A stretch of DNA of 64,000 nucleotides from positions 115,076,680-115,140,679 of the forward strand of contig CP092863.1 in NCBI GenBank assembly GCA_030710605.1, written 5' to 3'. Origin of the DNA: Cordylochernes scorpioides. Lineage: Eukaryota > Arthropoda > Arachnida > Pseudoscorpiones > Chernetidae. The position numbers and the translations under genes are program-made. The notes under the pieces were generated by a model. That model was not told where the DNA came from. It saw only the letters and a program-made list of their open reading frames with translations, and searched no databases. Of the stretch, positions 18,764-63,813 are shown piece by piece (position 1 is the first letter of the stretch; every line of letters starts with the position of its first letter).

Positions 18764-18775
18764 ATGTTAAACAAA

Positions 18776-18975
18776 TTATATTATGATGCGCGCCATCTGT
18801 TATGAATATTCGAAACTATTAAAGACGCGTATGATTCTTTTGAAAATAAAACCGCTGGGAGGGTTCACCACTGATGAGCCAGGCCCTCCCTTTAATTTTT
18901 CCATTGCAGTAAGGGCAGTAGAAATTGTTTAATTTTCAAAAGAATCATACGCGTCTATAATAGTTTCGAATATTC
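18776..18975. mobile_element. Fold-back family B, copy with 12-bp target duplication
   Basis: ATGTTAAACAAA flanks both sides (18764-18775 and 18976-18987). The outer arms (GAATATTCGAAACTATTA and the inverse GAATATTCAT end) are inverted, and one side carries an extra tail (TGATGCGCGCCATCTG). CTGATGA sits near the centre and GAAA lies about 45 nt further out. Non-coding. Confidence 0.8.
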
Positions 18976-19046
18976 ATGTTAAACAAAGTTTATGTATATA
19001 ATTTTTATGTTTTCAATATATATATTTTAAATTTATTTACAAAAGT

Positions 19047-19150
19047 CTGGGTGCTGCGCTACCAGGAGTATAGGAGCTCCATCTATGCTTCTTTTCTTCC
19101 TGTGGTGAATCTGTATAAGACCGGTGGTCTTAATAAAGCTTTGTGTGTGT
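19047..19150 (+). repeat. LINE 3' tail, family L1 (hairpin plus AATAAA)
   Basis: Ends with AAGACCGGTGGTCTT (a perfect hairpin) and AATAAAGC. The same tail occurs at 38697-38812 (+), 39416-39480 (-), 55405-55470 (-) and 61357-61500 (-). Read as 5'-truncated LINE copies. Confidence 0.75.
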
Positions 19151-19202
19151 GTAATTTACAAAAGTCTCTTTTATTTTTAATCTCTTATTTATTACTCGAT
19201 AT

Positions 19203-20618
19203 TTGCAGATACGTGTGACAATTTACACATGTATATATTTCAACCATATTCTCGAATCACTAACCAGCACTTTTAATGCCTCATTGAAACTCGCATACTT
19301 CCCGAACAACTGGAAAACATCGATTATTTGTCCCATACTAAAACAAAGTAAATCAAAATACGACCCAGCAAGTTATAGACCCATTTCCCTCCTACCTGTC
19401 ACCTCCAAACTATTTGAAAGAATAATTTTAAGAAGAATAAAAAAAGCACTCAGCGACGAACATCCCCTCAGGCCCGAACAATTCGGGTTCCAGCCAAAAC
19501 ACTCAACCCTTCATCAACTTGTGGTCGTCACGGAGAAGATAAGAAAGGCTATGGAATCAAAACAATTAACAGGAGGCATCTTCTTTGACATCTCCAAGGC
19601 ATTTGACAAAGTTTGGCACGAGGCCCTCCTATATAAAATGGCAAAAAAGAACCTACCTGGAGACATCATCCGAATGACAAAAAGCTTCCTCTGTGACAGA
19701 AACTTTAGAGTAAAAGTCAAAGATGTTCTGTCAACCCCAAGGAAAATTCGAGCAGGAGTCCCTCAAGGGTCAGTCATCGGCCCCACCTTCTTCAATATTT
19801 TTATCGATGACTACCCATGCCCCGATGGAATGTCCCTACATCTATACGCAGACGATGCCGCAACTCTAGTCTCAGCCTTCAACCTCGATACCATCTATCT
19901 CAAACTTCAAGAAGCACTGGTATTCGTTAATATTTGGTGCGACGAATGGCGGGTTAAATTGAACCCACAAAAAACCGAAGCTATACTCTTCTCAGACAAA
20001 AGACTAAAAGTGAAGAAGCCCTTGGAAGACCTAGGCTACCCTGATGAACCCATAAAATGGAAGGACAGCGTCCGCTACCTGGGCGTCATCCTTGATCAAC
20101 ACCTGACCTTCCAAGAACACGTGCAAAACCGAATAAACCTCGCAAAAGCAGCCCAGCACCGACTAGCACTATTTTTAGGGAACAAGAGCAAACTGTCCCT
20201 ACACTGCAAACGTACCATATACACGTCTATTATAAGACCAATCCTAACCTACGGCCACCCAGTCTTCATAACCGCAAACAAAACTACACTGAAAAAATTC
20301 GAAAGTTTCGAAAACCAGGTATTAAAGAAAATAATAGGTGCCCCATGGTTCGTCAGAAGTAGTATCATCAGAAAGGACCTCAATTTAGAAAATATAAATG
20401 ATTTTATAATAAAACAAGCTTTCAACTTTTACGATAAATCTGAAAATCTCGAAAATATTACATTCAGAGAAGCCTGTAACTACAAACAAGAACTGAAGAG
20501 AAGGAAACCAAAGCCAAGGCAACTCCTATATCGATTGAGAACAAATGTAGAAAAATGGAAAAATCTTAAGAAAAAACACGTTAAAGAAAAAAATAATAAT
20601 AATAAAAATAAAAAATAA
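19203..20618 (+). pseudogene. LINE ORF2 reverse transcriptase, 5'-truncated
   Basis: Recognisable coding begins about 19230 (the first Met is not the native start) and stays open to TAA 20618. Reverse transcriptase signatures are SYRPISLLP, FFDISKAFDKVW (motif A), AGVPQGSVIGP (motif B) and YADD at residues 215-218 (motif C), followed by thumb and C-terminal sequence (YLGVILDQHLTF, SIIRPILTYG). These are typical of the Jockey/CR1 group of non-LTR elements. The endonuclease and N-terminus are missing, as usual for truncated insertions. The frame itself is intact, so the copy is young. The C-terminus ends in a Lys/Asn-rich low-complexity tail. Confidence 0.9.
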
Positions 20619-20800
20619 CAGAACATATTAGAAAAGAGAACACACCGATTTAAAGACCGCGCGCCAGGCCCTAACCTTGTAGAGATGTGAATACCCTGTC
20701 AATGTGAAGAACGTGTACATATAATTCATTGTTAATATCATAAGCTAGGTTGCTCTTTTTGAGCGACACCTAATAAAGTTATTTTTGAACTGGAACTGGA
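20619..20800 (+). repeat. 3' UTR and tail of the LINE (family L3)
   Basis: The tail carries the hairpin TTGCTCTTTTTGAGCGA, then CACCTAATAAAG, and ends in short GAACTG repeats. Related tails are at 17868-17925 (-) and 26150-26210 (+). Confidence 0.75.
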
Positions 20801-20827
20801 ATGTATATATTTATATATTTACATGTG

Positions 20828-21247
20828 AAAAAAATAGTACAAATGTGATATTGTACTGGGATAAGGTGCATAAATTATGAAAAAAAGGCATCTCCTTATC
20901 GTGCAACTGAAAGTTGCTGATGGATTGCGCCATCTATCGGAATAAATATCAATTTTCGACAATTCTGGAATAATAAAAAATTAACGAGAATAGTTGATAT
21001 TGTCACGTGGAAAATTAGGGAAGACCAACTTCGGGATGAGACAACAATTTATTTCAGGCAAGAACAAACTATAAGTGATGAACAATAGATAAGCAAAAGA
21101 GGGAAGTGTACAGAGTATAGCAAAATATAAACATAAAAAATAATACTCTGCTAATAAAATAATGAATACTATGTTACAATATTTATTCCGATAGATGGCG
21201 CAAGCCATCAGCAACTTTCAGTTGCACGATAAGGAGATGTCGTTTTC
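20828..21247. mobile_element. Fold-back family C with 13-bp target duplication and nested solo LTR
   Basis: ATATTTACATGTG flanks both sides (20815-20827 and 21248-21260). The arms (GGCATCTCCTTATCGTGCAA inward, and its inverse) face each other. The left side alone carries a tail containing GTGATATTGTACTGGGATAA. A 178-bp insertion splits the right arm at 21001-21178. No coding. Confidence 0.85.
21001..21178 (-). mobile_element. Solo LTR, 178 bp
   Basis: Bounded by TG...CA and flanked by ATAT on both sides (20997-21000 and 21179-21182). Uninterrupted relatives read GTTGATATTTATTCC, so one ATAT is the target. Read on the minus strand it starts TGTAACATAG, has AATAAA and ends CACGTGACA. It is probably a gypsy-type solo LTR. 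Confidence 0.8.
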
Positions 21248-21310
21248 ATATTTACATGTGTATATTTAGGAAATCATGTATGTATATAAGTAGAACTAGG
21301 ATTCAAAATT

Positions 21311-21411: not shown

Positions 21412-21890
21412 ATTTGATTTCCGATAAAAAATCATATTTAAAGTTTAATTCATTTTGTAAATACATTCTTAACTTTCTACAAAATCTGGATTTCTAGTGT
21501 TTTCATGTGTTGAATAATGTAAATAACTTATTTTCGGCTACATGAACTCAGTAGATTTTGTTTAAATATATACTACGAATAAAAGATTACATGAGGAGCT
21601 TCTTTTTCGATTTATTGCGAGCTTTCGAACCTTTCGGTTCTTCTACAGGCGTGGATAGCATGAATATACTAACTCTATACTAAGCGTTAGTATATCCATG
21701 CTATCCACGACTGTAGAAGAACCGAAAGGTTCGAAAGCTCGCAATAAATCGAAAAAGAAGCTCCTCATGTAATCTTTTATTCGTAGTATATATTTAAATA
21801 ACTTATGTAAATAAACTTTTCTCCTTGTTTGGCGTAAGTATCCCTTGCGGGATATAGCGCTTTGGAAATAAAATAATTGTAATAATTGTA
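21412..21890 (+). repeat. LINE 3' region, family L2, interrupted by a fold-back
   Basis: Matches 44746-44955. The tail has hairpin TATCCCTTGCGGGATA, then GCGCTTTGGAAATAAA and ATAATTGTAA repeats. It is split at 21531-21794 by another element. Confidence 0.8.
21531..21794. mobile_element. Fold-back element G (264 bp) with 11-bp target duplication and two hammerhead-like cores
   Basis: TAAATAACTTA flanks it at 21520-21530 and 21795-21805. The intact relative at 44746-44955 has the site once. The arms are inverted and meet at CATGAATATACTAAC...GTTAGTATATCCATG. Each arm carries CTGTAGA, stem GAACC/GGTTC with a GAAA loop, then GAAA-GCTC (plus strand 21711-21740; inverse in the left arm near 21627-21655). 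The left side has an extra tail of about 36 nt. Confidence 0.85.
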
Positions 21891-25230: not shown

Positions 25231-25250
25231 TTCACAACAAAGGATACTCT

Positions 25251-25359
25251 TTATATAAAAGGGCGTACCTGGATCTGTAAAGAAAAAAAAACAATTTTTT
25301 CTTTACAGATCCAGGTACGCCCTTTTATATAATCTTAATTAATGGATCGCCTTTTGACT
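25251..25359. mobile_element. Fold-back family F, short copy with 13-bp target duplication
   Basis: CAAAGGATACTCT flanks both sides (25238-25250 and 25360-25372). An almost perfect palindrome (AAAGGGCGTACCTGGATCTG and inverse) is followed on the right only by a 27-nt tail containing ATGGATCGCCTTTTGACT. A longer relative is at 61648. Confidence 0.85.
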
Positions 25360-25509
25360 CAAAGGATACTCTGGATATTTTTACCTCTCAGAATATTGGA
25401 ATACAAAACTGCTGTGTTCAACATGTAAGTTTAATATTTACAACATCCCAGTACAGGGCCGACGTGAACTAATTTTCAATCATTTTGATTATCATTTGTT
25501 GGAAGTAGA

Positions 25510-25690: not shown

Positions 25691-25718
25691 CATTTACACG
25701 AAAATAAACATTTTAATG

Positions 25719-25901
25719 AAAAATAGTACCAATGTGATATTGTACTGGGATAAGGTGCATAAATTATGAAAAGGCCTCTCCTTATCGTGAAACTAAAAGT
25801 TGCTGATGGGTTGCGCCAGAATAGTTGATATTTATTCCGATAGATGGCGCAAGCCATCAGCAACTTTCAGTTGCACGATAAGGAGATGCCTTTTTCACAA
25901 A
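25719..25901. mobile_element. Fold-back family C, deleted centre
   Basis: Flanked by AACATTTTAATG (25707-25718) and AACATTTTTATG (25902-25913), one mismatch. The arms GCCTCTCCTTATCGTG and inverse are present, with a one-sided tail on the left. The centre is deleted. Confidence 0.7.
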
Positions 25902-26149
25902 AACATTTTTATGTTAAAAAAAAAAAGAATAAAAATTCAGACCAAATTTTTAGCCCTCAATGATGATGTTGAAAAAGAAACAATTTAAAAGCATTAAAAC
26001 AAACTCGATACAAAAACTTTACACTTAATATCAAAACAATAGTCGGTGGACAAGTAGGTAACACCCTCGATTCCCGACAGTCATGAACCAGGATTGAATC
26101 CCACGTTAACATTTTGTTTAATATATGAATAACCTTCACATTCATTGTT

Positions 26150-28053: not shown

Positions 28054-28111
28054 TATATAAGTGTATAATATGTGTATATGTGTAAGTGTATATATATGTA
28101 ATATGTAAATA

Positions 28112-29001
28112 TGGTAATTTAAACCAACAACCCCATACTGTCTATATAACTTGTAATAAGATTGTCATGTTGTATATAGAAACACATCTATAAATAATTA
28201 TGCGCATGATTAATCTGTGTCATTGCATCACCTATGTAATGTAATTTGTACAAAGTGGATAAATAAATAAAATCTGTAATAGATTTAAGAGTTGAGCTAA
28301 AGCACAGATCGAGCATAGTATTGCCAAAACAACAGAGTCTAAATATGGAAGTCATAAATCAGGTAGATTCACAATTCCCACGACAGGCCACCCACACTGT
28401 CACATGTGGTGGAATGCAGAGACCCCTCTCACACCTGGACAGGTAAAGGCGCCCTTTCTCAAACGCCCCTGTCACATAAGGTCCCCCCCCCCCCGTCTTT
28501 AACCTATAAATACATCACCTGACAGTGGCTTGACAGTTCAGTACAGTTTAGTTTAGTTCACCCTCAGCGAAGCTCACGTCGGTTGTCACCAAGGTCCTCC
28601 TCATTCACCATGTAGACTAGTAAGGACTCTTCTATCTCCATCTTTCGCTCCCGGCTCAACTTTTATCTGTTTACGGAACTTTCTTAGTGCAACTGTGTCT
28701 TCGTTTTTTGTGTATGGATATCCCCAAGCTTTTCCACTCTGCCTCGACCACGACTGCCTGTATTTTGTGAGAACTTTTAAAGGTCTTCCAAGGTGCAGAG
28801 AGGTACTGGAAAACTCTACATCCTGACTGTTCCTCTTGGTCAACACAGTACAACAAGAGCTACCAGGACTTCAACATTATTTCAGTAGTCGACAGTATCT
28901 CTACAAAAGCTACTGGAATTCTCTCATCTCTCATCTTCATTACATGAGTCGACAGGATACTACAAGTCGACAACAACCAAACATTCAACTCTAACATTAC
29001 A
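28112..29001 (+). repeat. Left direct repeat (LTR-like)
   Basis: Contains TATAAATA (28505-28512) and an arthropod-type initiator TCAGT (28538-28542), preceded by a C12 run. The short open frames on the minus strand are identical in both repeats and look non-coding. Confidence 0.6.
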
Positions 29002-31583
29002 TGAGCCGACAGGATGACCAAAACGATGGATGACACAACGAAGAGGTAAGAAGACTGTTCAGATAGGAAGCGAGAAAGAGCGAAGATGGAGGAACAAGCC
29101 CGACCATTCTAACGAAACGTCCAAGCAATCTCTCCCCAAGATATTTACGGAAGAAAACGCCGCCCCAACGGACTTCCGCATACCCGCTAACCGATCGCCA
29201 ACGTCGGGAGCAAGCTGACCGCGCCAACGACAGCCCCGATATTCCCGCAAGTCATGGAAACCGAGCTGCGATGTGACCCAAACCCTGTGACAAGTTCCAC
29301 ACCTTCGACTTGACATCGTCGAGACAATGATCAAGGCAACAAGCGACAAACAACTTTCCAGAATCTACAAGCTTCTACAAGTCCAACATGGAGCGACTTC
29401 CACGTCAGCAGGAAAACAACCAAAGAACACGTCTCCTGACTGAACTTTCATCCAAATTGTAAGTTTTTAAAAAAACCTACCTTAACTTTATCCTCAAGTT
29501 CAAAACTTGATTCCCTATAAATTTTGTATTTATATTTTCACTTTAAGCATTTTAAAATCAATTTTTACCTTTTTTATACCATTTTTTAATTCAATTTTTA
29601 AAACTTTCACATTTTAATTGATCAAATTTACTTTAATTTTTAATCAGATTATAAATTTCAAGTTATTACTCTCAATTTTACTTAAAAAAAAAAATTTTTC
29701 GCCCATCACGCTTTTTTACCATTTTTACTAATCTTACATGTCGTTCTTAAATTTATCTAAAAATGGCATTATCCAAATCTACAACTTAAAAAAAAATCAT
29801 TATTATTATTAAAAAAAAAAAAATCTCATTCATCATATTTCTCAACTTATTTTTGTTTTACTTATTAGTTATCTTTATACAAAAGACCAATATCTTTATC
29901 AATTCTTAAAATTTGGTAATGTTCACCATTTTAAGTAAGCGCCCAATTCAAATTATTTGTAACTCTCACGACATTGCCCTTTTATAAGAATCATTTTAAT
30001 TATCATAATCAACAATTTAAAAAGTATATTCAAATTTTAAATATAAATTAACATAGGTGAAACGCATTTTTTTTTAATTGCAAAAATCGGAAGATACAAT
30101 ATCTTCAAAAACACCACTAGGGAAAACAACTATCTTTCCCAAAACAAGTTGAAAATAAAGATTCCCTCCACTTCATCGCCAGTAGCTAAATTAGGTCACA
30201 ACCTAACAAACTTATTAACAACATTTTATTCTAACTTAGATACACTCCCTCGTCTCTACTTTTTACATGCATAATTAAGCATCAATAAATCTCTCTCAAC
30301 AAATGTTATAACGCTCACACATCACTTTATACAATTGGCAACAATTTTTAGTGCGCGACTTAACACACAAATCCAAATCTTGAGCCACACAAGCCTCCAC
30401 TTAACTCTATATCGTCGCCACAATTAAATAATTTCACATTAAACTTGCCACATCCACTAACAGTCAAATATTCTCTCGATGTGTTTCATACAACAACCAC
30501 CCATGACTTTAGTAAATTTGTTATTTATGGCGAAAAAGGTTAGATTTTGTACCAAACTAAGACTTCACGTGACACCTTTTCATTCACATTTCTCACTTCG
30601 TGTCACAGTGCCACACCACAAAACTTTTTCACTTTTCAGGCCAAAGACGCCTTCACGCCTGTGACACCACATCTCAACTCAAAGCGTGTCCACGTTGAAA
30701 GTCGAACTTTCACCACACATCTAAACCTGACATCACCTAATAACATTTTTTCTAAGTCTAAACTAAATGCGAAACACAACAACTACAAACACCGAGAAAA
30801 TCATATCTTTCAATTATAGCAGAAAATTGCCAACTCAACAAAAGGAGAATATCTTCTCTCCCCCCTCAAGCAGTCATCTTGACCGCTAGCTTCATGATCG
30901 CCATTTTAAACAAATGTTTCAAACCAACCATTTAGATTTCCTCGAGAATCTCACAAATCTCACCAACGAGATATCACAACACAACATACATTAAACATTT
31001 TACATGTTAAATTGATAACACCAATTAAAACAATTTGGTTAAGTCTTATATAGACTTTTTAACGCGAAAGAGAAATCATTCTCTACATACCAGCATTGAG
31101 GACAAACGAAAAGATCATTTCACATATTCCCAGTTTCAGAGTCATAGAAACACCGACGTTACCAAAGGGATATAATCTAGTCACACACCACAACTGTAAC
31201 TTTTCGTCAAAAGAGACAATTTTTGTTCAATTTTACACTACTTAAAATTTACCCAATCATTAATAACCTTCAATTATATTATAAATTTTGTATAAAATCT
31301 TGAATAATTATTCTTATTCTTACCTTTCAATTATATAAACAAATTTTTTAATCCAACATTTAAAAAAAAAAAAAACCTTCAATCAAATTTACTTTTATTT
31401 TCATGATATTATTTTAGTATTGTAAAACATCTAATTGTTTCAAAAATTATTTTTATTTTATTATTTATTATATATTTTATATATTACAGGTTTAATTTTG
31501 TCCACTTACACTTTTTGTACCCGCAATCATATTTCTATATTTCTATTCACTATATTTTATTTGTTTAAATACCTTTATTATCT

Positions 31584-32262
31584 TGATAAAGAAAGAAAAA
31601 TCAAAGATAAGGAGGATAAGTTTCTTTTATGAACAAATGATCAAGCTTTCGGGCACAAAGTCGCCCTTCTACAGGAATAAAATTATACAAAATCAAGATT
31701 CATCTATATATATACAAATATTTAGCATAAATAATAAATAAATATTAGAAAATATAGAGATAACATTTAAGTTTTATGTCTGATGTACGAATCAGGTAAA
31801 TCAAGTGAGAGTCTCGTGTCTCGAGTGTAAGGCCTTAACAAATTATTTTTAAGAGAAAAAATTATATTTTATGTGTGATATACAAAATAAATAATAAGAG
31901 AAATGTGAATATGCTAATATTTGGTATAATGTGTATATCACACATAAAATATAATTTTTTTCTCTTAAAAATAATTTGTTAAGGCCTTACACTCGAGACA
32001 CGAGACTCTCACTTGATTTACCTGATTCGTACATCAGACATAAAACTTAAATGTTATCTCTCTATTTTCTAATATTTATTTATTATTTATGCTAAATATT
32101 TGTATATATATAGATGAATCTTGATTTTGTATAATTTTATTCCTGTAGAAGGGCGACTTTGTGCCCGAAAGCTTGATCATTTGTTCATAAAAGAAACTTA
32201 TCCTCCTTATCTTTGATTTTTCTTTCTTTATCAAGTTACTCCAGAGGATTTTAATTTATTTA
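31584..32262. mobile_element. Fold-back element H (679 bp) with 13-bp target duplication and two hammerhead-like cores
   Basis: ACCTTTATTATCT flanks both sides (31571-31583 and 32263-32275). Inverted arms of nearly 300 bp surround about 60 bp. The right side alone has an extra tail of about 28 nt. Each arm has CTGTAGA-A-GGGC...GCCC-GAAA-GCTT: plus strand 32143-32174, minus strand 31643-31674. Non-coding. Confidence 0.85.
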
Positions 32263-32698
32263 ACCTTTATTATCTGACAAAGTTTATCATCCACTATCGG
32301 GCATCTACAACATCGTTTTCAACAATCATATTCTTTAACCAATTCCTATATTTTTCATCACTATCTTTTCAGTCATTGCGTCACATCAAAGTAGAAAAAC
32401 GACAGCACTGCTTGACAATTTTATTTTTTTGATTTCGTAATTCAACAAACTCTTTGAGAACACCGTTCCCCAGACTTACAAATCCAAACTTCTGGTCTGA
32501 ACACGTTTCAAAAGTTTATTTCATTTCATCCGCAGAGCAAATCACCAACGCATACACAAGCGTTCACTTTTTTCAACTTTCAACTTTTTTTTTCAGCTCT
32601 AGCGGACCACATTCAACCTTTGAATTCGAGTCAAGTCAGATCACCTACTGTCGCTACAATTCTACTTATCGCACGGCTCTATTTCACTCCTTTCTCAA

Positions 32699-33060: not shown

Positions 33061-33324
33061 ACTACTAACCCTGTCCAACGCCCACCAATATTCTCTTAGA
33101 ATGTGAATTTTTATGTCATCATTTTATCTTAATCATCTTTTTTGTTAATCAAACAAAATGTCATTTTTATTTCACTTTATATATCCAACAAATATCATCT
33201 TGTTATAGCCTTTTTAACCCTCACAGTTTAAATTAATTAAAAGAAATTTTAATTACTTACCTGTGTTAGAGAGGCTTTACCCGCCTAAACCCGGATAAAC
33301 CCTTTCACTCCCGGGGCCCATCTA

Positions 33325-34221
33325 TGGTAATTTAAACCAACAACCCCATACTGTCTATATAACTTGTAATAAGATTGTCATGTTGTATATAGAAACACAT
33401 CTATAAATAATTATGCGCATGATTAATCTGTGTCATTGCATCACCTATGTAATGTAATTTGTACAAAGTGGATAAATAAATAAAATCTGTAATAGATTTA
33501 AAGAGTTGAGCTAAAGCAGAGATCGAGCATAGTATTGCCAAAACAACAGAGTCTAAATATGGAAGTCATAAATCAGGTAGATTCACAATTCCCACGACAG
33601 GCCACCCACACTGTCACATGTGGTGGAATGCAGAGACCCCTCTCACACCTGGACAGGTAAAGGCGCCCTTTCTCAAACGCCCCTGTCACATAAGGTCCCC
33701 CCCCCCCCCCCCCCGTCTTTAACCTATAAATACATCACCTGACAGTGGCTTGACAGTTCAGTACAGTTTAGTTTAGTTCACCCTCAGCGAAGCTCACGTC
33801 GGTTGTCACCAAGGTCCTCCTCATTCACCATGTAGACTAGTAAGGACTCTTCTATCTCCATCTTTCGCTCCCGGCTCAACTTTTATCTGTTTACGGAACT
33901 TTCTTAGTGCAACTGTGTCTTCGTTTTTTGTGTATGGATATCCCCAAGCTTTTCCACTCTGCCTCGACCACGACTGCCTGTATTTTGTGAGAACTTTTAA
34001 AGGTCTTCCAAGGTGCAGAGAGGTACTGGAAAACTCTACATCCTGACTGTTCCTCTTGGTCAACACAGTACAACAAGAGCTACCAGGACTTCAACATTAT
34101 TTCAGTAGTCGACAGGATCTCTACAAAAGCTACTGGAATTCTCTCATCTCTCATCTTCATTACATGAGTCGACAGGATACTACAAGTCGACAACAACCAA
34201 ACATTCAACTCTAACATTACA
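33325..34221 (+). repeat. Right direct repeat (LTR-like)
   Basis: Near-identical to 28112-29001, with C18 in place of C12. TATAAATA is at 33725-33732. It ends in TA-rich simple sequence. Confidence 0.6.
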
Positions 34222-34452
34222 TATATGTAATATATGTATATGTAATATATATAATGTATATAATATGTATATGTAATATGTGTACGTGTATATATGTATA
34301 TATAAGTGTATAATATGAGTGTATATATAAAATTTCTTGTGTCCCCCTTTTCTATAATATATCACGGTTTTATATAATTTTAAAAGCAACTCAATACTTA
34401 TCGTAATATATTACATAGGTAGGTATGTAAATGAGAAAATCTCTCAAACGGG

Positions 34453-34739: not shown

Positions 34740-34839
34740 NNNNNNNNNNNNNNNNNNNNNNNNNNNNNNNNNNNNNNNNNNNNNNNNNNNNNNNNNNNNN
34801 NNNNNNNNNNNNNNNNNNNNNNNNNNNNNNNNNNNNNNN
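34740..34839. other. Assembly gap (100 N)
   Basis: 100 unknown bases. The first base after it continues a Penelope-like sequence nearly identical to 37507 onward, so repeat collapse or a join error is likely here. Confidence 0.99.
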
Positions 34840-36353
34840 TGGACAGGATGGTTTCTTCAAGGTCGGTTTTACATATGCAAAGGATATCATCGACATATCG
34901 TCGCCAGAAAAGAATGTCATCACAATGGAGGTTGCAGACCCATTTATCTATTCTGGTCATAACCAGCTCAGCAGCTATGGAGGAGAGGGGGCTTCCCATA
35001 GGCGATCCCCTTATCTGTTTGAAATGGATATGGTCAAAGGTAAAGGTGCTCATGTTTAAGCATATCTGTGAGAGGGATGTGATAGAGTTGGTCTTGACGG
35101 GATCTGTGTTGATGGAAACCAAAAATTGGTTGAGGCTGTCAATTATCAGGTGATGGGGGAGACTGAGGTATAGGGATGAAACGTCAAATGAACACATGGT
35201 GAAGTTTTGGGGGGGGGTGTAGGCCGGTTATTTCTTGAATGAGTGTGGGGGTGCTGGAAACTGTGAGATTACTTCTATTGTTGTTTAAAAGAGGTGAGAG
35301 ATAATTTGAGAGGTACTTAGCTAGGGGGTAGGCGGGAGAGAGGTGATACGCAATGATAGGGCGCAGAGGGACAGAAGGTTTGTGGACCTTGGGAAGGCCG
35401 TAGATGTAGGTACCATTGGGGAGATTAGTGGTAAAGGACTTGTGTTCCTCCGTTGAGATGAGACTGGTTCTTTTCATTCGGTTGAGAGAGGACTTGAAGG
35501 TTTTTAGTGCTATTGTGCTCTCTTGTGCGGAAATTTGAGAAAAAGTGGCTGTGTCCTGCAATATTTCCAAGATTTTGGCGTGGTACGAAGATCGGTCTAG
35601 GATTACGGTGTCAGTGCCCTTATCTGATCTGCTGATGACAATTGAACGTTGTTTCATTAGTCTGCGGAGGGCCTTGGATTCAGTTTGGGAATTTGGGGGT
35701 GGGGGGAGAGGTCTCTGGAGTACCCGGGATACATGGTTTCTGATGGCGCATCTGTCTTGATGGTTATGATTCTTAACGGAGGCCTCTATTCCACTGATGA
35801 TCCTGGGTATATCGGGTTTGGCGGGAAGTCGATATTTGAGGCCTTTAGAGAGGAGACTGTTTTCAGCAGGGGTGAGGGTTACGCTAGACAGATTGATGAT
35901 GTTGTTTGAAGCCTCGGGGTTGGCATATTTGTGATCGAGTGGGAAGGAGTATTTTTGGGACCAGAACGCTAGCTTTTTATCGTGTCTAAGCTGTATACTT
36001 CGGTCTTGTACCTTAATATCTGAGGTGGTTCTTTCTATGAGAGCTGTGAGATCAGATTCATGAACGTTTTGGGAGGTTAGGCATATCAGCCCTTTGATTG
36101 ATTTGGTGAGGAATCTAATTTGGGAAAGGCAACCTTTAGTTCTTGCCCGTAAGAGTTGCCATTGGATTCTTCTTATAAGTTCTGCTGAGAAGGGGTTTCC
36201 AACAGGATCCTTTACACGGAGGGATGGAGGGATAAACACTAGCCGTTCACATAGCTGGTTGAACTTTAAATGGCAACGCCATTTGGCGAGTTGAAGAGAT
36301 TTCTTGTGGATGAGGAACTTGTATCTGTCGATTTCGCCTCTAGGAAGAGCCAT
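34840..36353 (-). pseudogene. Penelope-like element, N-terminal region and reverse transcriptase (copy 2)
   Basis: Starts at ATG 36353 and runs as an open frame to 35184. One-base slippage in a G/C run at 35206-35215 moves the reading into the next frame, which carries SFDVSSLYLSLP (motif A), QIRGSPMGSPLSSI (motif B) and RRYVDD (motif C) until the N gap. Earlier motifs are RSDKGTDTVILD and YGLPKVHKP, typical of Penelope reverse transcriptases. The GIY-YIG endonuclease expected downstream is lost in or beyond the gap. It is almost identical to copy 1 over the shared 250 bp. Confidence 0.88.
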
Positions 36354-36716
36354 AATAAATACGAAGAATTAAACTCAATTGATTAATAGTAAAAAACTTA
36401 AAACTCTTCCGGTGTACAGCTTATGAAAAAACGTATCATTAAATGGAAGATAGGTATCTTTTATTTGTAAACGTTACGAGCTTTCGGGCAAACGCCCTTC
36501 TACAGGTTTGACAGAAATTAAGGCGAGAGACCGACCTATATACAAGGGATGATTTACATAATAAGCAATTTTTATAACTTAGCAGTAAGAATTTTTAATT
36601 TTTAATAAGTAACTATTGTATTGATATGGTAATAAGATGTTGTATACTAGATTTTTAACTATGTAAAAAAGGAATAGATTAACTTGAAACAAAGATATCA
36701 TAAATTTCAGGAATTT
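36354..36716 (-). repeat. Penelope junction region (pseudo-LTR) between two tandem copies
   Basis: 363 bp separate the endonuclease stop of copy 1 from the start codon of copy 2, the head-to-tail layout typical of PLEs. It carries a hammerhead-like motif on the minus strand (CTGTAGA 36499-36505, GGGC/GCCC stem, GAAA 36482-36485, GCTC). Confidence 0.75.
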
Positions 36717-38140: not shown

Positions 38141-38199
38141 TCATTATATTTACGCGGTCTCACACAATTCTGGCCTAAAACTACCCGTTTAATGATTTT

Positions 38200-39114: not shown

Positions 39115-39178
39115 TATACTGGGTTCTCAAATATATCATAAAGGAAATATAGACTGCTTATATACACATATACAGCTT

Positions 39179-46260: not shown

Positions 46261-46736
46261 CTCCCATTGTGCAAATATGGCGGCCTACATTTGGATAGAT
46301 GGCGGTAGTGCATCTTTGAAAGATGGAAGAAGGAGATTAGGAAGTTTGCCATCACCGCCTCCATTAGCTTACAAAGACATTTTTTAAGAAATTGGGAAAA
46401 AACAACACTAATCCCTCCAAACCTCTTACAATATATTTTAAGATATTGTAAGTTTTTTCATCAAAGAAGCTCTTAAAAATTGTTTTAAAACGTCTGGGAA
46501 TTGAAATAAATGGAAAATATTTTCAATTATTTCTACTTAGATATATATTATAAGTTTTTATTTTAGAAATCTCAAATACACAATAATACATCTCAGAATA
46601 TAAAATTGTCCACATTTCGAACATGTTAAAAATGTAATAAACTTTAAACCTAAATATGTTTCGATCCATTATATATAGGCGTGTGTAGAAATTTTGCTGG
46701 GGAGATATTCATCTATATAAAAAAAAAAAAAGATAA

Positions 46737-46948
46737 CCTCTCCCGTCAAAATAGACGCTAAAACTAAGCACAATTCATTGACCGTCTCCGCAAACTAGCG
46801 GAATCGTTGACAAGGCCAACAATATTAACTTTAGCAAATTTAGAACGTTCACCTAATGTTGTGGCTTTGTTACCGACCCGAGTCCGCTAGTTTGTTGAGA
46901 CGGTCGATAGATAGCGCTTAGTTTTAGCGTCTATTTTGACGGGAGAGG
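46737..46948. mobile_element. Terminal-inverted-repeat element, 212 bp
   Basis: Ends share a perfect 33-bp inverted repeat starting CCTCTCCCGTCAAAATAGAC. Further matching inner blocks (GACCGTCT, AACTAGCGGA) continue the fold. A fragment occurs at 34625. Non-coding. Confidence 0.75.
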
Positions 46949-47059
46949 TGAATTTTGTAGAATGTTAATATAGAGTTAACTCTCTGTTGTATATAAGCTA
47001 TGCAAATTCTAGTTACAGTATGTATATAAGATCATATTTTTGTCAGTGTTCTTTGTAAT

Positions 47060-47349: not shown

Positions 47350-47362
47350 TATATATAAATAT

Positions 47363-47513
47363 TTAATTAAAAAGGCATATATTGGATCAAAATATCATGA
47401 TATAGAATATCAATGGATATAGAGCAATCCATAAATAAATCTTTAATTAAATCAATCCAATATATGCCTTTTTATTTGAAGATTTATCTATGGATTGCTC
47501 TATTTTCAAAACA
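47363..47513. mobile_element. Fold-back element E2 with 12-bp target duplication
   Basis: ATATATAAATAT flanks both sides (47351-47362 and 47514-47525), inside or next to simple sequence. The arms GGCATATATTGGATCAAAAT and inverse meet without a hammerhead. The right side alone has the tail GATTTATCTATGGATTGC. Confidence 0.75.
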
Positions 47514-47644
47514 ATATATAAATATGTATCAAAAATGGTACCTCTCTCTTTAAAAATGCATTATAACAATATATTTGGTTTATTGTCCAGTACAAAACAT
47601 AAAGGTGATGAATATATATCAAATTTCGAAGCTGGTCTTGACTT

Positions 47645-48250: not shown

Positions 48251-48275
48251 TAGATTATAAATACAAGGTAATAAT

Positions 48276-48545
48276 TAATGATGCATTATCGCGCCATCTG
48301 TTATCAAAATTCGAAACTATTATAGACGCATATGATTTTTTTTTAAATAAACAATTTCTACTGCCCTTACTGCAATGGAAAAATTAAAGGGAGGGCCTGG
48401 CTTATCATTTTCCATTCACTCATCATTCACCACTAATGAGCCAGGCCCTCCCTTTAATATTTCCATTGCAGTAAGGGCAGTAGAAATTGTCTATTTTTTA
48501 AAAGAATCATACGCGTCTATAATAGTTTCGAATTTTGACATGGTA
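48276..48545. mobile_element. Fold-back family B, nearly perfect inverted copy
   Basis: Arms of about 125 bp (from CGAAACTATTATAGACGC through CTACTGCCCTTACTGCAATG to GGGAGGGCCTGGCTTATCA) mirror each other. The left side alone carries the tail GATGCATTATCGCGCCATCTG. Confidence 0.75.
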
Positions 48546-48900
48546 ATAAGAACAAATCCAAATAAATAAATAGTGTGTGACGTTTCGGTAACAGCGTTGT
48601 TACCATCTTCAGACAAAAGTACTGAATCCATATTTACCATCTTCAGACAAAAGTACTGAATCCATTGTTACCATCTTCAGACAAAAGTACTGAATCCATT
48701 GTTACCATCTTCAGACAAAAGTACTGAATCCATTGTTACCATCTTCAGACAAAAGTACTGAATCCATTGTTACCATCTTCAGACAAAAGTACTGAAGTAC
48801 TTTTGTACTTTTTTTCAGTACTCTTGTCTGAAGATGATAACAACGCTGTTACCGAAACGTCACACACTATTTATTTGAATGTGTTATTATTACCCTGTGT
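48546..48900. mobile_element. Fold-back element J with two hammerhead-like motifs and a 34-bp minisatellite
   Basis: Outer arms (CACACACTATTTATTT and inverse) enclose hammerhead-like motifs on each strand: minus 48578-48616 (CTGAAGA 48606-48612, GGTAAC/GTTACC, GAAA 48583-48586, CGTC) and plus 48823-48868 (CTGAAGA 48828-48834, GAAA 48854-48857, CGTC). Between them a 34-bp unit starting TACCATCTTCAGAC is repeated six times (48601-48797). Confidence 0.75.
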
Positions 48901-49103
48901 TTATCATCAAAATTAAACCTTCAAATACAATACTATATCGGTATTAAAATATAAATATTTAAATTATAAATGACGTACACCACCACCAGGATTTGTGAAA
49001 AGGAAAAAAAAAACTTCATTTTTCAAAATATTTATAGGGATTGCTCCCACTTCATCAATTTATTGCACAATAAACTTAAAGTTAAACTTCACAGATCTAT
49101 ATA

Positions 49104-55470: not shown

Positions 55471-55497
55471 TATATACATGTTTTCATATATATATAC

Positions 55498-55670
55498 ATA
55501 TATTAAGAAAAAGGCCTCTCCTTATCGTGCAACTGAAAGTTGCTGATGGCTTGCACCATCTATCGGAATAAATATCAACTATTCTCGTTGATTTTTATTT
55601 ATTCCAGAATTGGCCAAATACCCATCCTTGGTTAATCAAGAAAAGCTAACCACTGACGCGTTTCGGGCTG
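55498..55670 (-). repeat. Family C single arm with truncated hammerhead
   Basis: The arm GGCCTCTCCTTATCGTGCAA leads inward to GGTTAATCAAGAAAAGC and GACGCGTTTCGGGC, the GAAA half of the hammerhead at 38241. The CTGATGA half is missing. Confidence 0.7.
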
Positions 55671-55904
55671 TATATTTTGCTATATATATACGTATACATA
55701 TATGCAAATCATTTCTCGTAGTATAGAGAGGGATATTGAATATATATTATTTATATATTTATTTTAAAAATGTGTGCGTGTGTGTAATAATATTTTAACG
55801 CATTTGTTAATGAATATTTAAGGAAATTAAAATAGCATTTTATAGTTCAAAAACATGGTCATGATATTAATAACATTTTTTTGAAAGTTATAATATTTTC
55901 TATT

Positions 55905-58697: not shown

Positions 58698-59983
58698 TTG
58701 GGAGTACAAATAAGTTTTGAGGGATTTGCAAAAGAAGCCACAACAAATATTATATAAATAGCATCGGACCTTGTGTAAGGTTTCATGTTAAGGCTTCATC
58801 ATTTCCCCAAAAAAATCAGAAGGAGTCTTTCCACTCAAGTGTAAGGAACTTATTTTTTGGTGCTCTAACCATGTCAACCTTTTTGCCAACAAACACAATT
58901 TGCGGGAAGCGCTGCTTTTTTTTTTTTATTTGAAGAAAAGTGCAACTGATGGACATCGATTGCTGTGTGAGCATATGGTAAACATGCTCTTTCAATAAAA
59001 TCATGTGAGTACTGGGTTCGGCGTTTCAAAAGTGGCGATTTTGACCCCAAAGACGAAGAACGCGGAGGGAGGCCAATAAAGTTCGAAGACGCTGAGTTGG
59101 AGGCTTTATTGGACGAAGATTCAAGCCAAACTCAAGAGGAGCTCGCTGAAGCCTTGGGAGTGACTCAACAAGCGATTTCGAACCGTCTCAAGGTCATGGG
59201 TATGGTGCAAAAACAAGGAAATTGGGTTCCATATGAACTCAAGCCAGGAAACATCGAGCGCCGTATTTGCACGTGCGAACTACTGCTCAAAAGACAAAAT
59301 CGGAAGGGTTTTTTTGCATCGAATCGTGACGGGGGACGAAAAGTGGATTCACTACGACAACCCAAAGCGCAGAAAATCTTCGGTTAAGCCCGGTCATGCA
59401 TCAACTTCAACGGCCAAACCGAATATTCATGGCAAGAAGCTAATGCTGTGCATCTGGTGGGATCAGCTCGGAGTGATCTACTATGAGCTACTTCAGCCTA
59501 ACGAAACCATCACTGGAGAACGTTACCAACAACAATTAATGCGATTAAGCCGAGCATTGAAGATTAAACGCCCACTATATGCCAAAAGACATGACAGGGT
59601 GATCTATCAGCACGACAACGCTCGGCCACATGTTGCAAAAGTTGTCAAGGAGACTTTGGAAGCGCTTCAATGGGATATCCTACCCCACCCGCTGTATTCA
59701 CCAGACATTGCTCCTTCAGACTACCACATGTTCCGTTCGATGACACATGGCCTGGCCGAGCAGCACTTCACTTCTTACGAAGAGGCGAAAAATTGGGTCA
59801 ATGTTTGGATCGCCTCAAAAGACGAGGAATTTTTTCGACACGGATTCCGTATGCTGCCTGAAAGATGGGAAAAAGTCGTAGCTAAAGATGGACAATACTT
59901 TGAATGAAATATATTGTACTGATTTCTCTGAATAAAGCTTCGAATTTATAAAAAAATCCCTCAAAACTTATTTGTACTCCTAA
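58698..59983 (+). mobile_element. Mariner element, full length
   Basis: 1,286 bp, the usual mariner size. Inverted ends TTGGGAGTACAAATAAGTTT and TTAGGAGTACAAATAAGTTT are flanked by TA (58696-58697 and 59984-59985). The transposase is damaged. Confidence 0.92.
58940..59907 (+). pseudogene. Mariner transposase with frameshifts
   Basis: The N-terminus near 58940-59005 is scrambled by frameshifts. From about 59008 the frame reads WVRRFKSGDFDPKDEERGGR and the second helix-turn-helix (LAEALGVTQQAISNRLKVM). A one-base indel in a T7 run at 59308-59314 shifts the reading into the frame that ends at 59907. That frame has the catalytic Asp of VTGDEKWI, the Asp of YQHDNARPH and the final Asp of SPDIAPSD, with 34 residues between the last two, the mariner DD34D signature. 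The catalytic residues are intact and only the reading frame is broken. Confidence 0.9.
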
Positions 59984-60324: not shown

Positions 60325-60492
60325 ATTTCCAAAATAACTATTGTCACAGATTTTATTAAAGTGTGAAATATTGTCTTAAACACAAGGCAATAAATTCAAG
60401 ATTAGGATCTGACATGGTAGAAGAGATATAGCCACGTTTGAAGTGTAAAAGGGAGATCAAGAGGAACGTGGTGAGTTTCTTTATTGAGCGGT

Positions 60493-60531
60493 ACACAAGC
60501 TTTCGGACGTCACCCGTCCTTCATCAGGTGT
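60493..60531 (-). ncRNA. Hammerhead ribozyme of PLE-2
   Basis: Minus strand: CTGATGA (60521-60527), one A, stem II GGAC/GTCC (60516-60519 and 60505-60508), GAAA (60501-60504), GCTT (60497-60500). Stem I pairs ACAC (60528-60531) with GTGT (60493-60496). The core is canonical, with CUU as the cleavage triplet and a palindromic AGCU closing stem III. Confidence 0.8.
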
Positions 60532-60810
60532 TGACATGAATAAGAAGGAGATGCTATATTTATAAGCGACAGTTTAAAAATATTAAAAACAATCTGATGC
60601 ACGCCCGCGAGAGCACATGTTAATAACAAAAAATATAAAAAATTGTTTTCAATTTTACTGTGTATAAATATCAGCCCGTTGAAAATCTGCATACCTAAGA
60701 CGAAGTGAGAAAGGCGGACAACGAGAGGCGAAGACAAAAGCAAGAAAAAACAAAAATAAAAATAAAAAAATAAAAATAGAAAATCAGCGGAATAAAGATA
60801 AAGTTAAAAG

Positions 60811-61115
60811 TTACGAAGAAGGTGTATCTGAGGTAGAATAAAAAACAGAATATTGGGGCGGGAGGTCAATCTTTCTGTTGAGGCTGGGGGTAGTATTAGA
60901 AACAAGGGCCTCAAGAACTAAGCGTTGGTATTTGTTTGCTATATCGCTATAAACGGGGGTTGTATTGTCGAGATTGAAGGAATGTCCGGACTCGGCGATA
61001 TGTTGGTATATGAGCGATTTTTTGTCTTTCGAGCGGATGTTACGGGCGTGTTCACTGGCTCTGATGGCGATTGTTCGGCCTGTTTCTCCAATGTAGTGTA
61101 AATCACAATAGATAT
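60811..61115 (-). pseudogene. GIY-YIG endonuclease domain of PLE-2, truncated
   Basis: Begins at the break with LHYIGETGRTIAIR, then SEHARNI and YQHIAESGHSF, and stops at 60811. The first Tyr block of the domain and all the reverse transcriptase are missing. Upstream codons in the same frame belong to the inserted family B element and give a false start. Confidence 0.85.
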
Positions 61116-61118
61116 CTA

Positions 61119-61500: not shown

Positions 61501-61647
61501 TGAAAAGACGAGTGTGGAATCAGCCGTGTTCTAGTCTTCACTTTCCTCATCCAAATGGACCAGGACATTCGGCGATTTCTATTAATCTCCTCCGAACTGT
61601 GACTGCGGCCTTGTAAGTTATAAAATACCATCATATATGTTTATATA

Positions 61648-61835
61648 TAAAGGTGTACCTGGATCTGTAAAGAAAAAAAAAATCTCAAAATATTTCGAGA
61701 GATTGCTCCCTCTTTATCAATTTTTTTTTTTGAGAATTTTTGAGAAAAAAAAAATGTTTTTTTTTTTTTTTTTACAGATCCAGGTATGCCTTTATATATA
61801 AACTTAATTGATGGATCGCCTTTTGACTCAAACTA
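61648..61835. mobile_element. Fold-back family F, longer copy with hammerhead-like motif
   Basis: Arms GTACCTGGATCTGTAAAG and inverse, plus the right tail ATGGATCGCCTTTTGACTC. On the minus strand 61684-61720 reads TTGATAA (61714-61720), A, GAGG/TCTC stem, GAAA (61693-61696), TATT: the U3-A8 core again. A degraded relative (TTGATGA core, UAAA in place of GAAA) is at about 49018-49062. Confidence 0.65.
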
Positions 61836-61949: not shown

Positions 61950-62040
61950 TTTCTTTTCTTTTCTTTCAAATTTTTTGTTTATCTTTAAAGTGTAAGTGTC
62001 CTATGGGGACATAGCGCTTTAAGTCGAAATAAAGAACAGG
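61950..62040 (+). repeat. LINE 3' tail, L2-like
   Basis: Hairpin TGTCCTATGGGGACA then TAGCGCTTTAAGTCGAAATAAAG resembles the L2 tail with a different stem sequence. Confidence 0.55.
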
Positions 62041-62231
62041 CTATGGTATATGCCAGGACAAATCTATGGATCTTTTGATACCTTTGAGTTTCTTAGTGAG
62101 TAAAGTTTCCAGCACAATGCGCGCCTGGTTTATTTATACTTATTAAAGGGTTCACTACGATATTGTGACGAAGAAATAATTTATTATTCAATTTAATTAT
62201 TCAATGAAAATATTTGGAAACAGAATTATTA

Positions 62232-62532
62232 ATATGAAAAAAGGCATCTCCATATCGTGCAACTGAAAGTTGCTGATGGCTTGCGCCATCTATCGGAATA
62301 AATATCAACTATTCTCGTTGATTTTTAATTATTCCAGAATTGGCCAAATACTATTAATCAATAATAGGTATTTGGCCAATTCTGGAATAATTAAAAATCA
62401 ACGAGAATAGTTGATATTTATTCCGATAGATGGCGCAAGCCATCAGCAACTTTCAGTTGCACGATAAGGAGATGCCTTTTTTCATATTTATGCACCTTAT
62501 CCCAGTACAATATCACATTTGTACTATTTTTT
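62232..62532. mobile_element. Fold-back family C, complete inverted pair
   Basis: CAGAATTATTA (62221-62231) and CAGATTTATTA (62533-62543) flank it, one mismatch. The arms are nearly perfect and meet at ATTGGCCAAATACTATT...GGTATTTGGCCAAT. A tail on the right only contains CACCTTATCCCAGTACAATA. Confidence 0.75.
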
Positions 62533-62549
62533 CAGATTTATTATTTGTA

Positions 62550-63180
62550 AAATCATCATTTAGTTACCTAGCTTGCTTGCTCGATATTCCCTAGCTGTAG
62601 ATAGTTTTGTTGAGTTGTTAATATTTGTCGACTGGTCGTGGTGACATCATCAATAAATACTTTCACATCTTCAGATATACAAAGACTTGATTTCTACGCT
62701 ACAATATATAAAGTAAGAAACATAAATTTCTAAATGATTATCATCAAAAAAACGTATAGATGGAGAAATATGGTAATGTAAAATTGCGGGCGAGGCTTTT
62801 CTCTTCCCAGTTTTGCTAGCCGTTTAGTGAAAAAAATCAATATTCTCTGATGGCTGTTAACAAATTGGATGTCCCACAAGCCGTGAACTTCTTCTGCTTC
62901 TTCTTTCCTTATGTGGATATATACGGTCATCTTGGTGCTCGAATTGGTTCTGTTCTTAATAAACATCACATTCAGATGGTTTTTTTTTTGCTTTTCCCTG
63001 CATCCTAAGGTAGTCATCCTTTTCTTAGAACAAATTTGTTTACATAGATAAAGAGGAAAGAATTTTGTATAATAATCCTCTAATTCGCTAAGAAAAGTTC
63101 TAATTATGTGAATATTTACCCGCATATATATATATATGTCATAATATTACTCTTCCAGGAATAATAAAGTAAACCTAGAG
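62550..63180. other. No supported gene
   Basis: A polyadenylation-like AATAAATAC lies at about 62653. A 131-codon open frame on the minus strand (62730-63125) has no recognisable domain and AT-driven composition, so I leave it out. Confidence 0.4.
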
Positions 63181-63590
63181 TCAGCCCAGAGAGAAACAGC
63201 AGCTAAAGTCCAGTCATTTGAGACACCAGCGACATTCCATGGGGTGACCACAGGGGCGTTATTTGGAACCTCAGGACTAATTAAGACAGTTGAGGATTTT
63301 TTGTGTGCGATACGAACGGGCGGCCGCTCAGCGGCGGGCAGGCCGGCTGTCCCCCTATCTCTCTCTCTCTGGTTGTCTGGGATTCCTCTACCAAATTGTG
63401 GTGTGCTTATTTCTCTTTCCCCACCTTATTATTTTATTATTGCCACATATATATATATATTATGCTCTAGTTTCTTGGATAGTAGCCTGTTGAAGGAGGT
63501 CATAGTCCGAAAGCTTGCCGATTATACAGCACTAATAAAAGAAACTCGTCTCCGTTAAACTTTTATTCCTTCTTCAAGATCACATTCTCA
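63181..63590 (+). mobile_element. Penelope-type 3' end with hammerhead-like motif
   Basis: At 63487-63520: CTGTTGA, A, GGA/TCC stem, GAAA (63509-63512), GCTT, followed by AATAAAAG at about 63533. It is the same module as the other PLE ends, with U at position 6. Upstream 63300-63380 is GC-rich and non-coding. Confidence 0.5.
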
Positions 63591-63607
63591 ACAACAAATT
63601 GAATATA

Positions 63608-63787
63608 GTAAAAGAAAAAGGTATCTCCTTATCGTGCGACTGAAATTTGCTGATTGGCTTGCGCCATCTATCGGAATAAATATCAAACGCAAGCCATCAG
63701 AAACTTTCGGTTCCTAAATAAGGAGATGTTCTTTTTCTTAATTTATGAACCTTATCCCAGTACAAAATCAAATTTGTACTTTTTTTT
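63608..63787. mobile_element. Fold-back family C, deleted centre
   Basis: CAAATTGAATATA (63595-63607) and CAAATTTAATATA (63788-63800) flank it, one mismatch. Short arms, with the tail GAACCTTATCCCAGTACAAA on the right only. Confidence 0.7.
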
Positions 63788-63813
63788 TCAAATTTAATAT
63801 AATGTCTCATCTA

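Follow-up and report, generated by a model that had tools for sequence, protein, structure and literature searches.

The closest described systems and the window

Among described mobile elements, Penelope-like elements (PLEs) come closest to the fold-back insertions found in a 64,000-nucleotide stretch of the genome of the pseudoscorpion Cordylochernes scorpioides (contig 1, positions 115076680-115140679, in a 2.62-Gb assembly of 24 contigs; hereafter the window). According to passages of the report on Poseidon PAc of Anolis, the PLE protein in purified form acts on both strands, cutting and extending each, reverse transcription begins at two adjacent internal sites, the tail of genomic copies is the stretch between these two reverse transcriptase (RT) start sites, and a hammerhead lies near them; one passage terms the tail optional, while another ascribes it to most inserted copies (PMC11167929). 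Parts of the description of endonuclease-bearing (EN+) PLEs of Adineta vaga (Pen2a_Av and others) mention head-to-head inverted pseudo-long terminal repeats (pLTRs), short duplications and an optional 31-bp tail on one pLTR, together with palindromes at the junction and unrelated sequences captured between solo pLTRs (PMC3846280). As for the metazoan retrozymes without long terminal repeats (non-LTR retrozymes), their mobilizer is treated as open in the passages concerned, where the authors name PLEs as a strong candidate (PMC7229834; PMC7761336).

The PAc observations were made in vitro on a coding element, whereas the features described here are the pairing of the two start sites within one insertion and the existence of non-coding users. 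In the A. vaga elements, as far as the passages cited describe them, duplications measure 8-10 bp or are absent and the tail is optional, whereas copies of element E of the window carry duplications of mostly 13-14 bp and one tail in 28 of 28 cases. What is new here is the near-exceptionless presence of one tail per insertion, with few exceptions across families, as if each strand took one of two RT start sites, and the presence of PLE-type insertion signatures in a retrozyme and in a short interspersed element (SINE) headed by a transfer RNA (tRNA). The open-licence literature, searched through titles and opening lines and with most subscription papers outside it, returned nothing on tRNA SINEs mobilized by PLEs, on the single tail as an obligate feature or on fold-backs of retrozymes. 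We consider it very likely that the fold-backs are insertion products of Penelope-type retrotransposition, with E derived from an autonomous PLE and the small families presumably using PLE proteins in trans.

Element E and its coding relatives

Copies of E and of five other families (alpha, gamma, epsilon, beta and a SINE) were searched across the assembly, and all genome-wide counts refer to the best-scoring 40 candidates per family search and to the subset of copies that was fetched. Hammerheads are sequence predictions throughout. The features on which the reading of E depends are the following, in positions of the window.

31571-32275, no strand: element E, with 13-bp duplications at 31571-31583 and 32263-32275, left arm 31584-31930 with its 3' end outward, right arm 31932-32233 and a tail to 32262
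31674 (minus strand, left arm) and 32143 (plus strand, right arm): hammerhead-like CTGTAGA..GAAA motifs of E, from a motif scan
34840-38139, minus strand: coding element PLE1, its RT and GIY-YIG frames broken up among several reading frames, adjoining an assembly gap at 34740-34839
60411-61080, minus strand: second PLE fragment, with an endonuclease-like frame at 60811-61080 (GETGRT motif, by eye) and a 3' end with the hammerhead core CTGATGA..GAAA (60527)

PLE1 bears its own inverted 3' ends head to head (36422-36803 and 37757-38139, 99.7%). A Pfam scan placed RVT_1 in 34841-35227 (7.9e-9) and gave matches below the cut-off to RVT_1 in 37211-37777 (26.6 bits) and to GIY-YIG in 36720-37262 (19.5 bits); it was without match in 35187-36368 of PLE1 and in the frame 60811-61080 of the second PLE fragment. 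The arms of E were 98-99% identical to the 3' ends of genome copies carrying RT and GIY-YIG frames, and in locus L031 a single frame of 707 aa was found (RVT_1 at 1e-11; GIY-YIG at 5.6e-4 and 20.6 bits, for a Pfam cut-off of 22.6). Besides, the right end and tail of E aligned with the PLE1 3' end running into the 5' untranslated region of the next copy (171 columns, score 93, 0 of 200 shuffles), and this alignment spans the hammerhead-like motif, a stretch resembling a polyadenylation signal, the arm end and the tail. Since the tail of E matches the sequence that follows the PLE1 arm in tandem, it can be read as sequence downstream of the pLTR.

An RT and a GIY-YIG domain in one frame upstream of the arm, an inverted pLTR with a tail and a target site duplication, which mark an EN+ PLE, were all found for E, the two domains in copies that share its arm. 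Its arms match the ends of copies in which RT and GIY-YIG are encoded; E thus consists of two 3' ends of such a PLE joined head to head, and is a doubly 5'-truncated copy of the autonomous element. The first-pass annotation had proposed miniature PLE derivatives; derivation from a PLE holds for E, but the idea of a miniature family does not. Two direct repeats of 900 nt (28110-29002 and 33323-34222, 99%) flank E and possibly belong to a long terminal repeat (LTR) element that received it. A scan for the PLE1 endonuclease and a phage search with E found nothing.

The E search gave 92 matches, with 40 of 1067 candidates scored. Among the 35 loci examined, 28 held both 3' ends in the fetched stretch; L002-L008, L023 and L024, which duplicate other loci, were dropped. 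All 28 two-ended copies were head to head with their 3' ends outward, and in each of them a tail of ~29 nt stood at exactly one end. For the arm-length and duplication statistics, tail flags and ends were entered by hand, and the tail count was repeated by script. Because the query holds both end types and most listed copies match best at the tail-less end, no search bias toward one-tailed copies was evident. A perfect duplication flanked each of the 28 copies, of 13 bp (n=13), 14 bp (n=12), or 12, 15 and 17 bp (n=1 each), so that E mostly shows 13-14 bp instead of the 11-13 bp previously given for these elements. The 28 target sequences were all different, with 80% A+T. In a narrower fixed frame, a duplication of at least 11 bp was present in 26 of 28 copies, compared with 0.13% of mismatched flank pairs.

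Arm lengths within a copy were correlated (Spearman 0.74, P 6.6e-6). Over 20 columns with source variants, the two arms disagreed 11 times, with 310 agreements, whereas re-paired arms disagreed 37 times on average and at least 22 times in 500 trials; the rarer variant stood in both arms 11 times, against a shuffle mean of 1.1, the maximum of 500 shuffles being 12. At the junctions (n=27, L011 standing outside this count), an overlap of 1-13 nt was seen in 20, a blunt joint in 2 and one filler nucleotide in 5; these overlaps are BLAST boundaries, and the 7 of 20 that measure 1 nt may be due to chance. The simplest reading for E is that of two complementary DNAs (cDNAs) that began at different sites, on a single RNA or on RNAs transcribed from one source locus.

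Retrozyme, SINE and smaller families

Besides E, nine fold-backs had been listed for the window (A-D and F-J). They are given here by family, with related copies, further fold-backs and an empty site in a long interspersed element (LINE).

20815-21260, no strand: element B, alpha fold-back, 13-bp duplications, tail left, from 20828
25707-25914, no strand: element H, alpha fold-back, imperfect duplication 11/13, tail left
62221-62545, no strand: element I, alpha fold-back, imperfect duplication 11/13, tail right
63595-63801, no strand: element J, alpha fold-back, duplication 12/13 (63595 / 63789), tail right
38154-38440, plus strand: alpha unit with hammerhead core (38238-38303), no tail
55497-55671, minus strand: second solitary alpha copy, cut within the hammerhead
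21520-21806, no strand: element C (gamma), 12-bp duplications, tail left (21532-21557), core CCTGTAGAAG..CGAAAGCT common to PLE 3' ends
44743-44942, plus strand: uninterrupted LINE copy, empty target site of C
39168-39426, no strand: element F (epsilon), 11-bp duplications, tail of ~35 nt right
47351-47525, no strand: element G (epsilon), 12-bp duplications, tail right, an extra tail piece inside
18764-18987, no strand: element A (beta), 12-bp duplications, tail left
48267-48549, no strand: beta fold-back, 8-bp duplication GGTAATAA, tail left, sitting in an arm of the fold-back 48564-48876
25238-25372, no strand: element D (zeta), 13-bp duplications, tail right (25333-25359)
41156-41611, no strand: SINE fold-back, 9-bp duplications 41156-41164 / 41603-41611, tail left (41165-41200), 39 nt of the 3' end present again at the junction (41380-41418)
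43598-43869, minus strand: solitary SINE copy, tRNA part 43784-43856, 11-bp duplications 43598-43608 / 43859-43869
48564-48876, no strand: fold-back whose left arm holds the hammerhead-like core CTGAAGA..GAAACGTC (48612, minus strand), with a 34-bp minisatellite inside

The seven perfect duplications of the first-pass annotation were recovered at its coordinates (12, 13, 11, 13, 13, 11 and 12 bp, the pair 21520/21795 extending to 12), and an exact match of such length occurred in 0.5-2.3% of random placements per element, in a search space of ~100 nt on each side. The one-sided extra tail was likewise read in all ten listed elements. Three further duplications, taken to hold one mismatch, are present but weaker: 25707/25902 and 62221/62533 hold two mismatches in 13, and 63595 pairs at 12/13 with 63789, not with 63788. 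An uninterrupted LINE copy does provide an empty site, at 44743-44942 instead of 44746-44955, and the interrupted element is C (21520-21806), whose flanks it matches at 96% over 201 nt across the junction. The elements had also been called unrelated in sequence, but B, H, I and J form one family and F and G another, and there are related ends between E and the coding PLE, epsilon and zeta, and beta and the tRNA SINE.

Two further window fold-backs follow the same plan, namely 41156-41611 (SINE) and 48267-48549 (beta), and the same duplication test detected none at 61628-61814 and 46729-46956. Among 17 fold-backs tested jointly, from the window and other fetched DNA, 7 had both a perfect 12-13 bp duplication and additional sequence on one side only (SINE L030; beta A, L031 and L037; zeta D and L009; and L034, which is related to the 46729 fold-back). 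The small window copies of alpha, gamma, epsilon, beta and zeta contain no stop-to-stop frame of at least 120 aa, nor does the SINE have a coding frame there; lacking PLE coding sequence in the window, alpha, gamma, epsilon, beta and zeta were not filed as PLEs.

In the alpha search, 82 matches were obtained and 40 of 2994 candidates scored, and 20 copies were fetched, including L047 and L048, which share the same duplication and look like a segmental duplicate of one locus. Of these 20 copies, 18 carried one tail and 11 were flanked by an exact duplication of 11 bp or longer (null 1.3%); the junctions varied from copy to copy. With the unit 38154-38440 as query (40 of 2871 candidates scored), copies at 93-97% were found, several of them in tandem at a spacing of ~338 nt and some inverted. 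The monomer measures 338/339 nt (trimer) at a GC content of 0.39, with the core CTGATGAG-GGC..GCC-CGAAAC-GCGTC and a stem I of 4-6 pairs; Rfam HH9 matched six units of L103 and L106 at 22.5-26.5 bits, below its gathering threshold of 52. Alpha thus has the short tandem repeats (150-450 bp) with a putative type I hammerhead that characterize retrozymes, and appears to fit the description of the animal non-LTR kind. Its 338-nt tandem repeats, type I hammerhead core and GC content are like those of metazoan retrozymes in the published passages cited above, whereas its occurrence as fold-backs with PLE-type ends (20 copies fetched, 40 of 2994 candidates scored) has no counterpart in those passages (PMC7229834; PMC7761336).

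With the monomer numbered from the predicted cut, the readable alpha 3' ends in 14 loci fell at 157-158 (no tail) or at 197-204 (tail). The inverted pairs L103 and L104 have one tailed and one tail-less end each, and their duplications are AT runs of little proof. The 5' limits were mapped against the predicted hammerhead cut in 21 of 24 copies (all except B, H and J): 0 of 42 arm ends lay more than 4 nt upstream of it and 6 fell in +3..-4; this is taken only as a hint, as the query had no upstream sequence and would therefore rank longer-centred copies lower. In 6 of 16 readable cases (L103, L109, L111, L112, L114 and the window unit 38154), the 5' limit lay at monomer position 196-210, adjoining the outer RT start site; this is suggestive of one round on a circular template, which it would fit. 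Exact-motif scans of viral contigs for alpha and beta found nothing.

Strict hammerhead cores were found at three positions of the window, versus 0.1 expected from 20 simulated sequences: 38254 (alpha unit), 60527 on the minus strand (3' end of the second PLE fragment) and 48612 on the minus strand (fold-back 48564-48876). A relaxed core adds both arms of E (5 versus 0.35 expected). Several of the listed elements had been credited with hammerhead-like cores; no strict core was found by the window scan in A, B, D, F, G, H, I and J, whereas E and C hold only a CTGTAGA..GAAA motif of related type, in which the core is altered. For element A, a hammerhead was considered and rejected, CTGATGAG being present without the rest of the core, and Rfam microRNA matches on fold-backs were discarded as palindrome artefacts. 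The unit of the 34-bp minisatellite (48597-48796) holds part of the hammerhead-like core of its fold-back (TTGTTACCATCTTCAGA, plus strand), and the array may stem from this ribozyme region.

For gamma (80 matches, 40 of 990 candidates scored), tails were called from match coordinates: the full tail was one-sided in 40 of 40 scored places, the opposite-strand match beginning at query position 31-55 and the tail lying at 13-38. The motif region of C resembled PLE1_right, PLE3 and PLE4 (z 5.5-9.1, 0 of 200 shuffles) and PLE1_left (1-2 of 200 shuffles); PLE3 and PLE4 are 3' ends in which no coding frame was seen. The epsilon search (82 matches, 40 of 2647 candidates scored) provided 20 fetched copies which, with F, showed the full tail of 33-35 nt on one side in 21 of 21; the 7-22 nt of marked tail seen on the tail-less side result from a boundary placed too early. 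An exact duplication of at least 10 bp was present in 11 of the 20 (null 1.8%). For beta (query A; 104 matches, 40 of 1487 candidates scored), the insertion at 48267-48549 has its empty site in the other arm of the fold-back that holds it (48814-48908; 99 nt, 88%).

The SINE (40 of 2364 candidates scored) has a tRNA head, as in tRNA-derived SINEs, with cmscan tRNA scores of 47.8 bits in the window and 39.5 bits in L086. It occurs as solitary copies, as tandem dimers with a 46-nt spacer (L090 and L091) and as fold-backs, of which 8 were readable, L092 being truncated by the edge of the fetched DNA; 6 of them had one tail, and 5 of 8 had duplications of 9-13 bp. In L099 and L100 the tail of another unit precedes the tRNA head, so both are parts of tandems. 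At its 3' end the SINE is similar to beta (2 of 1000 shuffles). Its tRNA head and the duplications of 11-12 bp in 2 of 13 solitary copies are like those of tRNA-derived SINEs, unlike which it forms head-to-head fold-backs, mostly one-tailed, and tandem dimers with the 46-nt spacer. The spacing of 46 nt after the tail looks as if the transcript passed the RT start sites and was copied in tandem, as in PLEs.

Elsewhere, near-identical copies (98-100%) of 18764-18987, 21520-21806, 39168-39426 and 43602-43866 recur ~74-115 kb further on the same contig (C1:115171426, 115172610, 115231077 and 115227545), pointing to large segmental duplications. A gypsy-type LTR retrotransposon at 11311-16498 has flanking 342-nt repeats (11311-11652 and 16157-16498) that are 100% identical, so its insertion is recent. 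One gypsy-type protein encoded in the window reaches 99-100% identity to proteins assigned to Cordylochernes scorpioides. Remnants of piggyBac-type and Tc1/mariner-type transposases lie at 3041-6164, 4201-5163 and 58971-59907, the Tc1-type frame being named by eye.

Proposed insertion mechanism and rival explanations

The fold-back plan agrees with published work on a PLE in which reverse transcription has two internal start sites (Frangieh 2024). According to the mechanism that we infer, a GIY-YIG PLE protein, likely a dimer, would nick both strands of an AT-rich site, mostly 13-14 bp apart in the case of E. Each freed 3' end would then prime reverse transcription inside the RNA: one cDNA would begin at the outer RT start site and acquire the tail, while the other would begin at an inner start site ~25-50 nt upstream and remain tail-less. 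Both cDNAs would run to the 5' limit of a truncated or ribozyme-cut RNA before being joined head to head, and gap repair would leave the duplication. Alpha (the hammerhead retrozyme), gamma, epsilon, beta, zeta and the tRNA-headed SINE would be non-coding RNAs using PLE proteins in trans. The fold-back structure, the one-tail rule, the duplications, the correlation between arms and the identity of E as a PLE are observed, whereas the two nicks, the dimer, a single shared RNA and the mobilization in trans are deduced. Target-primed reverse transcription from both nicks of a PLE target, with cDNAs joined head to head, had already been proposed from the window; it is well supported for E, whereas the link of alpha, epsilon, beta, zeta and the SINE to PLEs is structural and that of C lies in the short motif region.

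Several observations weigh against this mechanism or its extension to the small families. Regarding the coding source, the GIY-YIG matches of PLE1 and L031 lie under the Pfam cut-off, and a coding PLE ending like alpha, epsilon, beta, zeta or the SINE did not turn up, PLE1 being the one compared over the terminal stretch. The arms had been expected to share the 3' end of a GIY-YIG PLE; this is the case for E, whereas the resemblance of C is confined to the motif region, and the terminal stretch and tail of C showed no match to PLE1 above shuffles (897 of 1000), nor, against PLE1 only, did the terminal stretches of alpha (116), epsilon (672), beta (93), zeta (473) and the SINE (495 of 1000 shuffles each). 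Regarding the structure, 7 of the 35 E loci showed a single end or an incomplete arm (L026, L027, L029, L030, L034, L037 and L040), and two tails were present in 2 of 20 alpha copies (L051 and L061) and in 2 of 8 SINE fold-backs (L088 and L089). The duplications are less regular outside E: while E is close to the expected 11-13 bp (12-17 bp, mostly 13-14), only about half of the alpha and epsilon copies comply (11 bp or more in 11 of 20 for alpha and in 9 of 20 for epsilon), the window fold-backs 48267-48549 and 41156-41611 break the rule with 8-9 bp, the remaining fold-backs of the joint test had 8-11 bp (6) or none of at least 8 bp (4), and no more than 2 of the 13 SINE copies that stand alone had a clean duplication (11 and 12 bp). 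In length, the tail arm exceeded the other in only 7 of 28 E copies and the tail-less arm in 21 (P 0.0125), whereas the alpha tail arm reached further in 14 of 21; with these opposite trends, no general rule on the longer cDNA can be drawn. Finally, passages on PAc report that in vitro the RT start was the same on both strands and that hammerhead mutants were without effect on insertion (PMC11167929).

Among the alternatives, the use of two independent RNAs, each with a free choice of RT start site, instead of one RNA or dimer using both, survives best, and we regard it as unlikely. The cDNAs are separate products that begin at one or the other of two discrete positions, the arms of a copy may differ severalfold in length (1043/2556), and alpha and the SINE include a few copies with two tails. 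However, a free and equal choice predicts that half of the copies carry two tails or none, and E has 0 of 28 such copies (0.5^28 = 4e-9). The arms also share source variants, though RNAs of one locus would do so as well.

A snap-back, in which a single target-primed cDNA folds at its 3' end and copies itself into a perfect palindrome, is quite improbable. Near-equal arms (1578/1576 and 1544/1560), source variants shared between arms and the further reach of the alpha tail arm (14 of 21) speak in its favor, but self-copying would put a tail on both sides, where E has one in 28 of 28, and the primed, tailed arm should never be shorter than its copy, where it is longer in only 7 of 28 E copies. 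We grant an equally small chance to LINE-type target-primed insertion, in which twin priming would make the inversions and the SINE and small families would be ordinary LINE parasites. LINE activity, too, would account for duplications of 9-14 bp and for SINEs with a tRNA head, and a LINE RT frame lies in the window at 19155-20618; yet twin priming yields a single 3' end rather than two that face outward, and the pairing of a tailed with a tail-less end is a published PLE feature. Least probable of all are DNA transposons of miniature inverted-repeat (MITE) or foldback type, with palindromes as terminal inverted repeats moved by a transposase: the long inverted arms, the small window copies without a frame of at least 120 aa and the many first-look candidates (990 to 2994 per family, 40 scored each) would suit them, but the ends are asymmetric (one-sided tail in E 28/28, alpha 18/20 and epsilon 21/21), arm lengths vary by copy, duplications vary in length (12-17 bp in E) where a MITE has symmetric terminal inverted repeats and a fixed-length duplication, and the long E copies encode RT and endonuclease and no transposase, which contradicts this explanation for E.

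Penelope-type insertion from both strands therefore remains the preferred reading, and it bears on two open questions, PLE integration and the mobilizer of animal hammerhead retrozymes. The fold-backs bear directly on the mechanism, as they record both ends of single insertions: two start sites, one per end, two cDNAs from one source, and end joining. Alpha ties retrozymes to PLEs by a shared insertion signature that can be searched in any animal genome. More tentatively, and with somewhat more doubt than confidence, we suggest that in every productive PLE insertion the two RT start sites of a single RNA may both be used, each for one DNA strand, and that the same machine may mobilize retrozymes (hammerhead-cut or circular) and a tRNA-headed SINE in trans. 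If this is true, head-to-head fold-backs would represent a whole class of PLE-dependent parasites, and the one-sided tail would be a rule and not an option.

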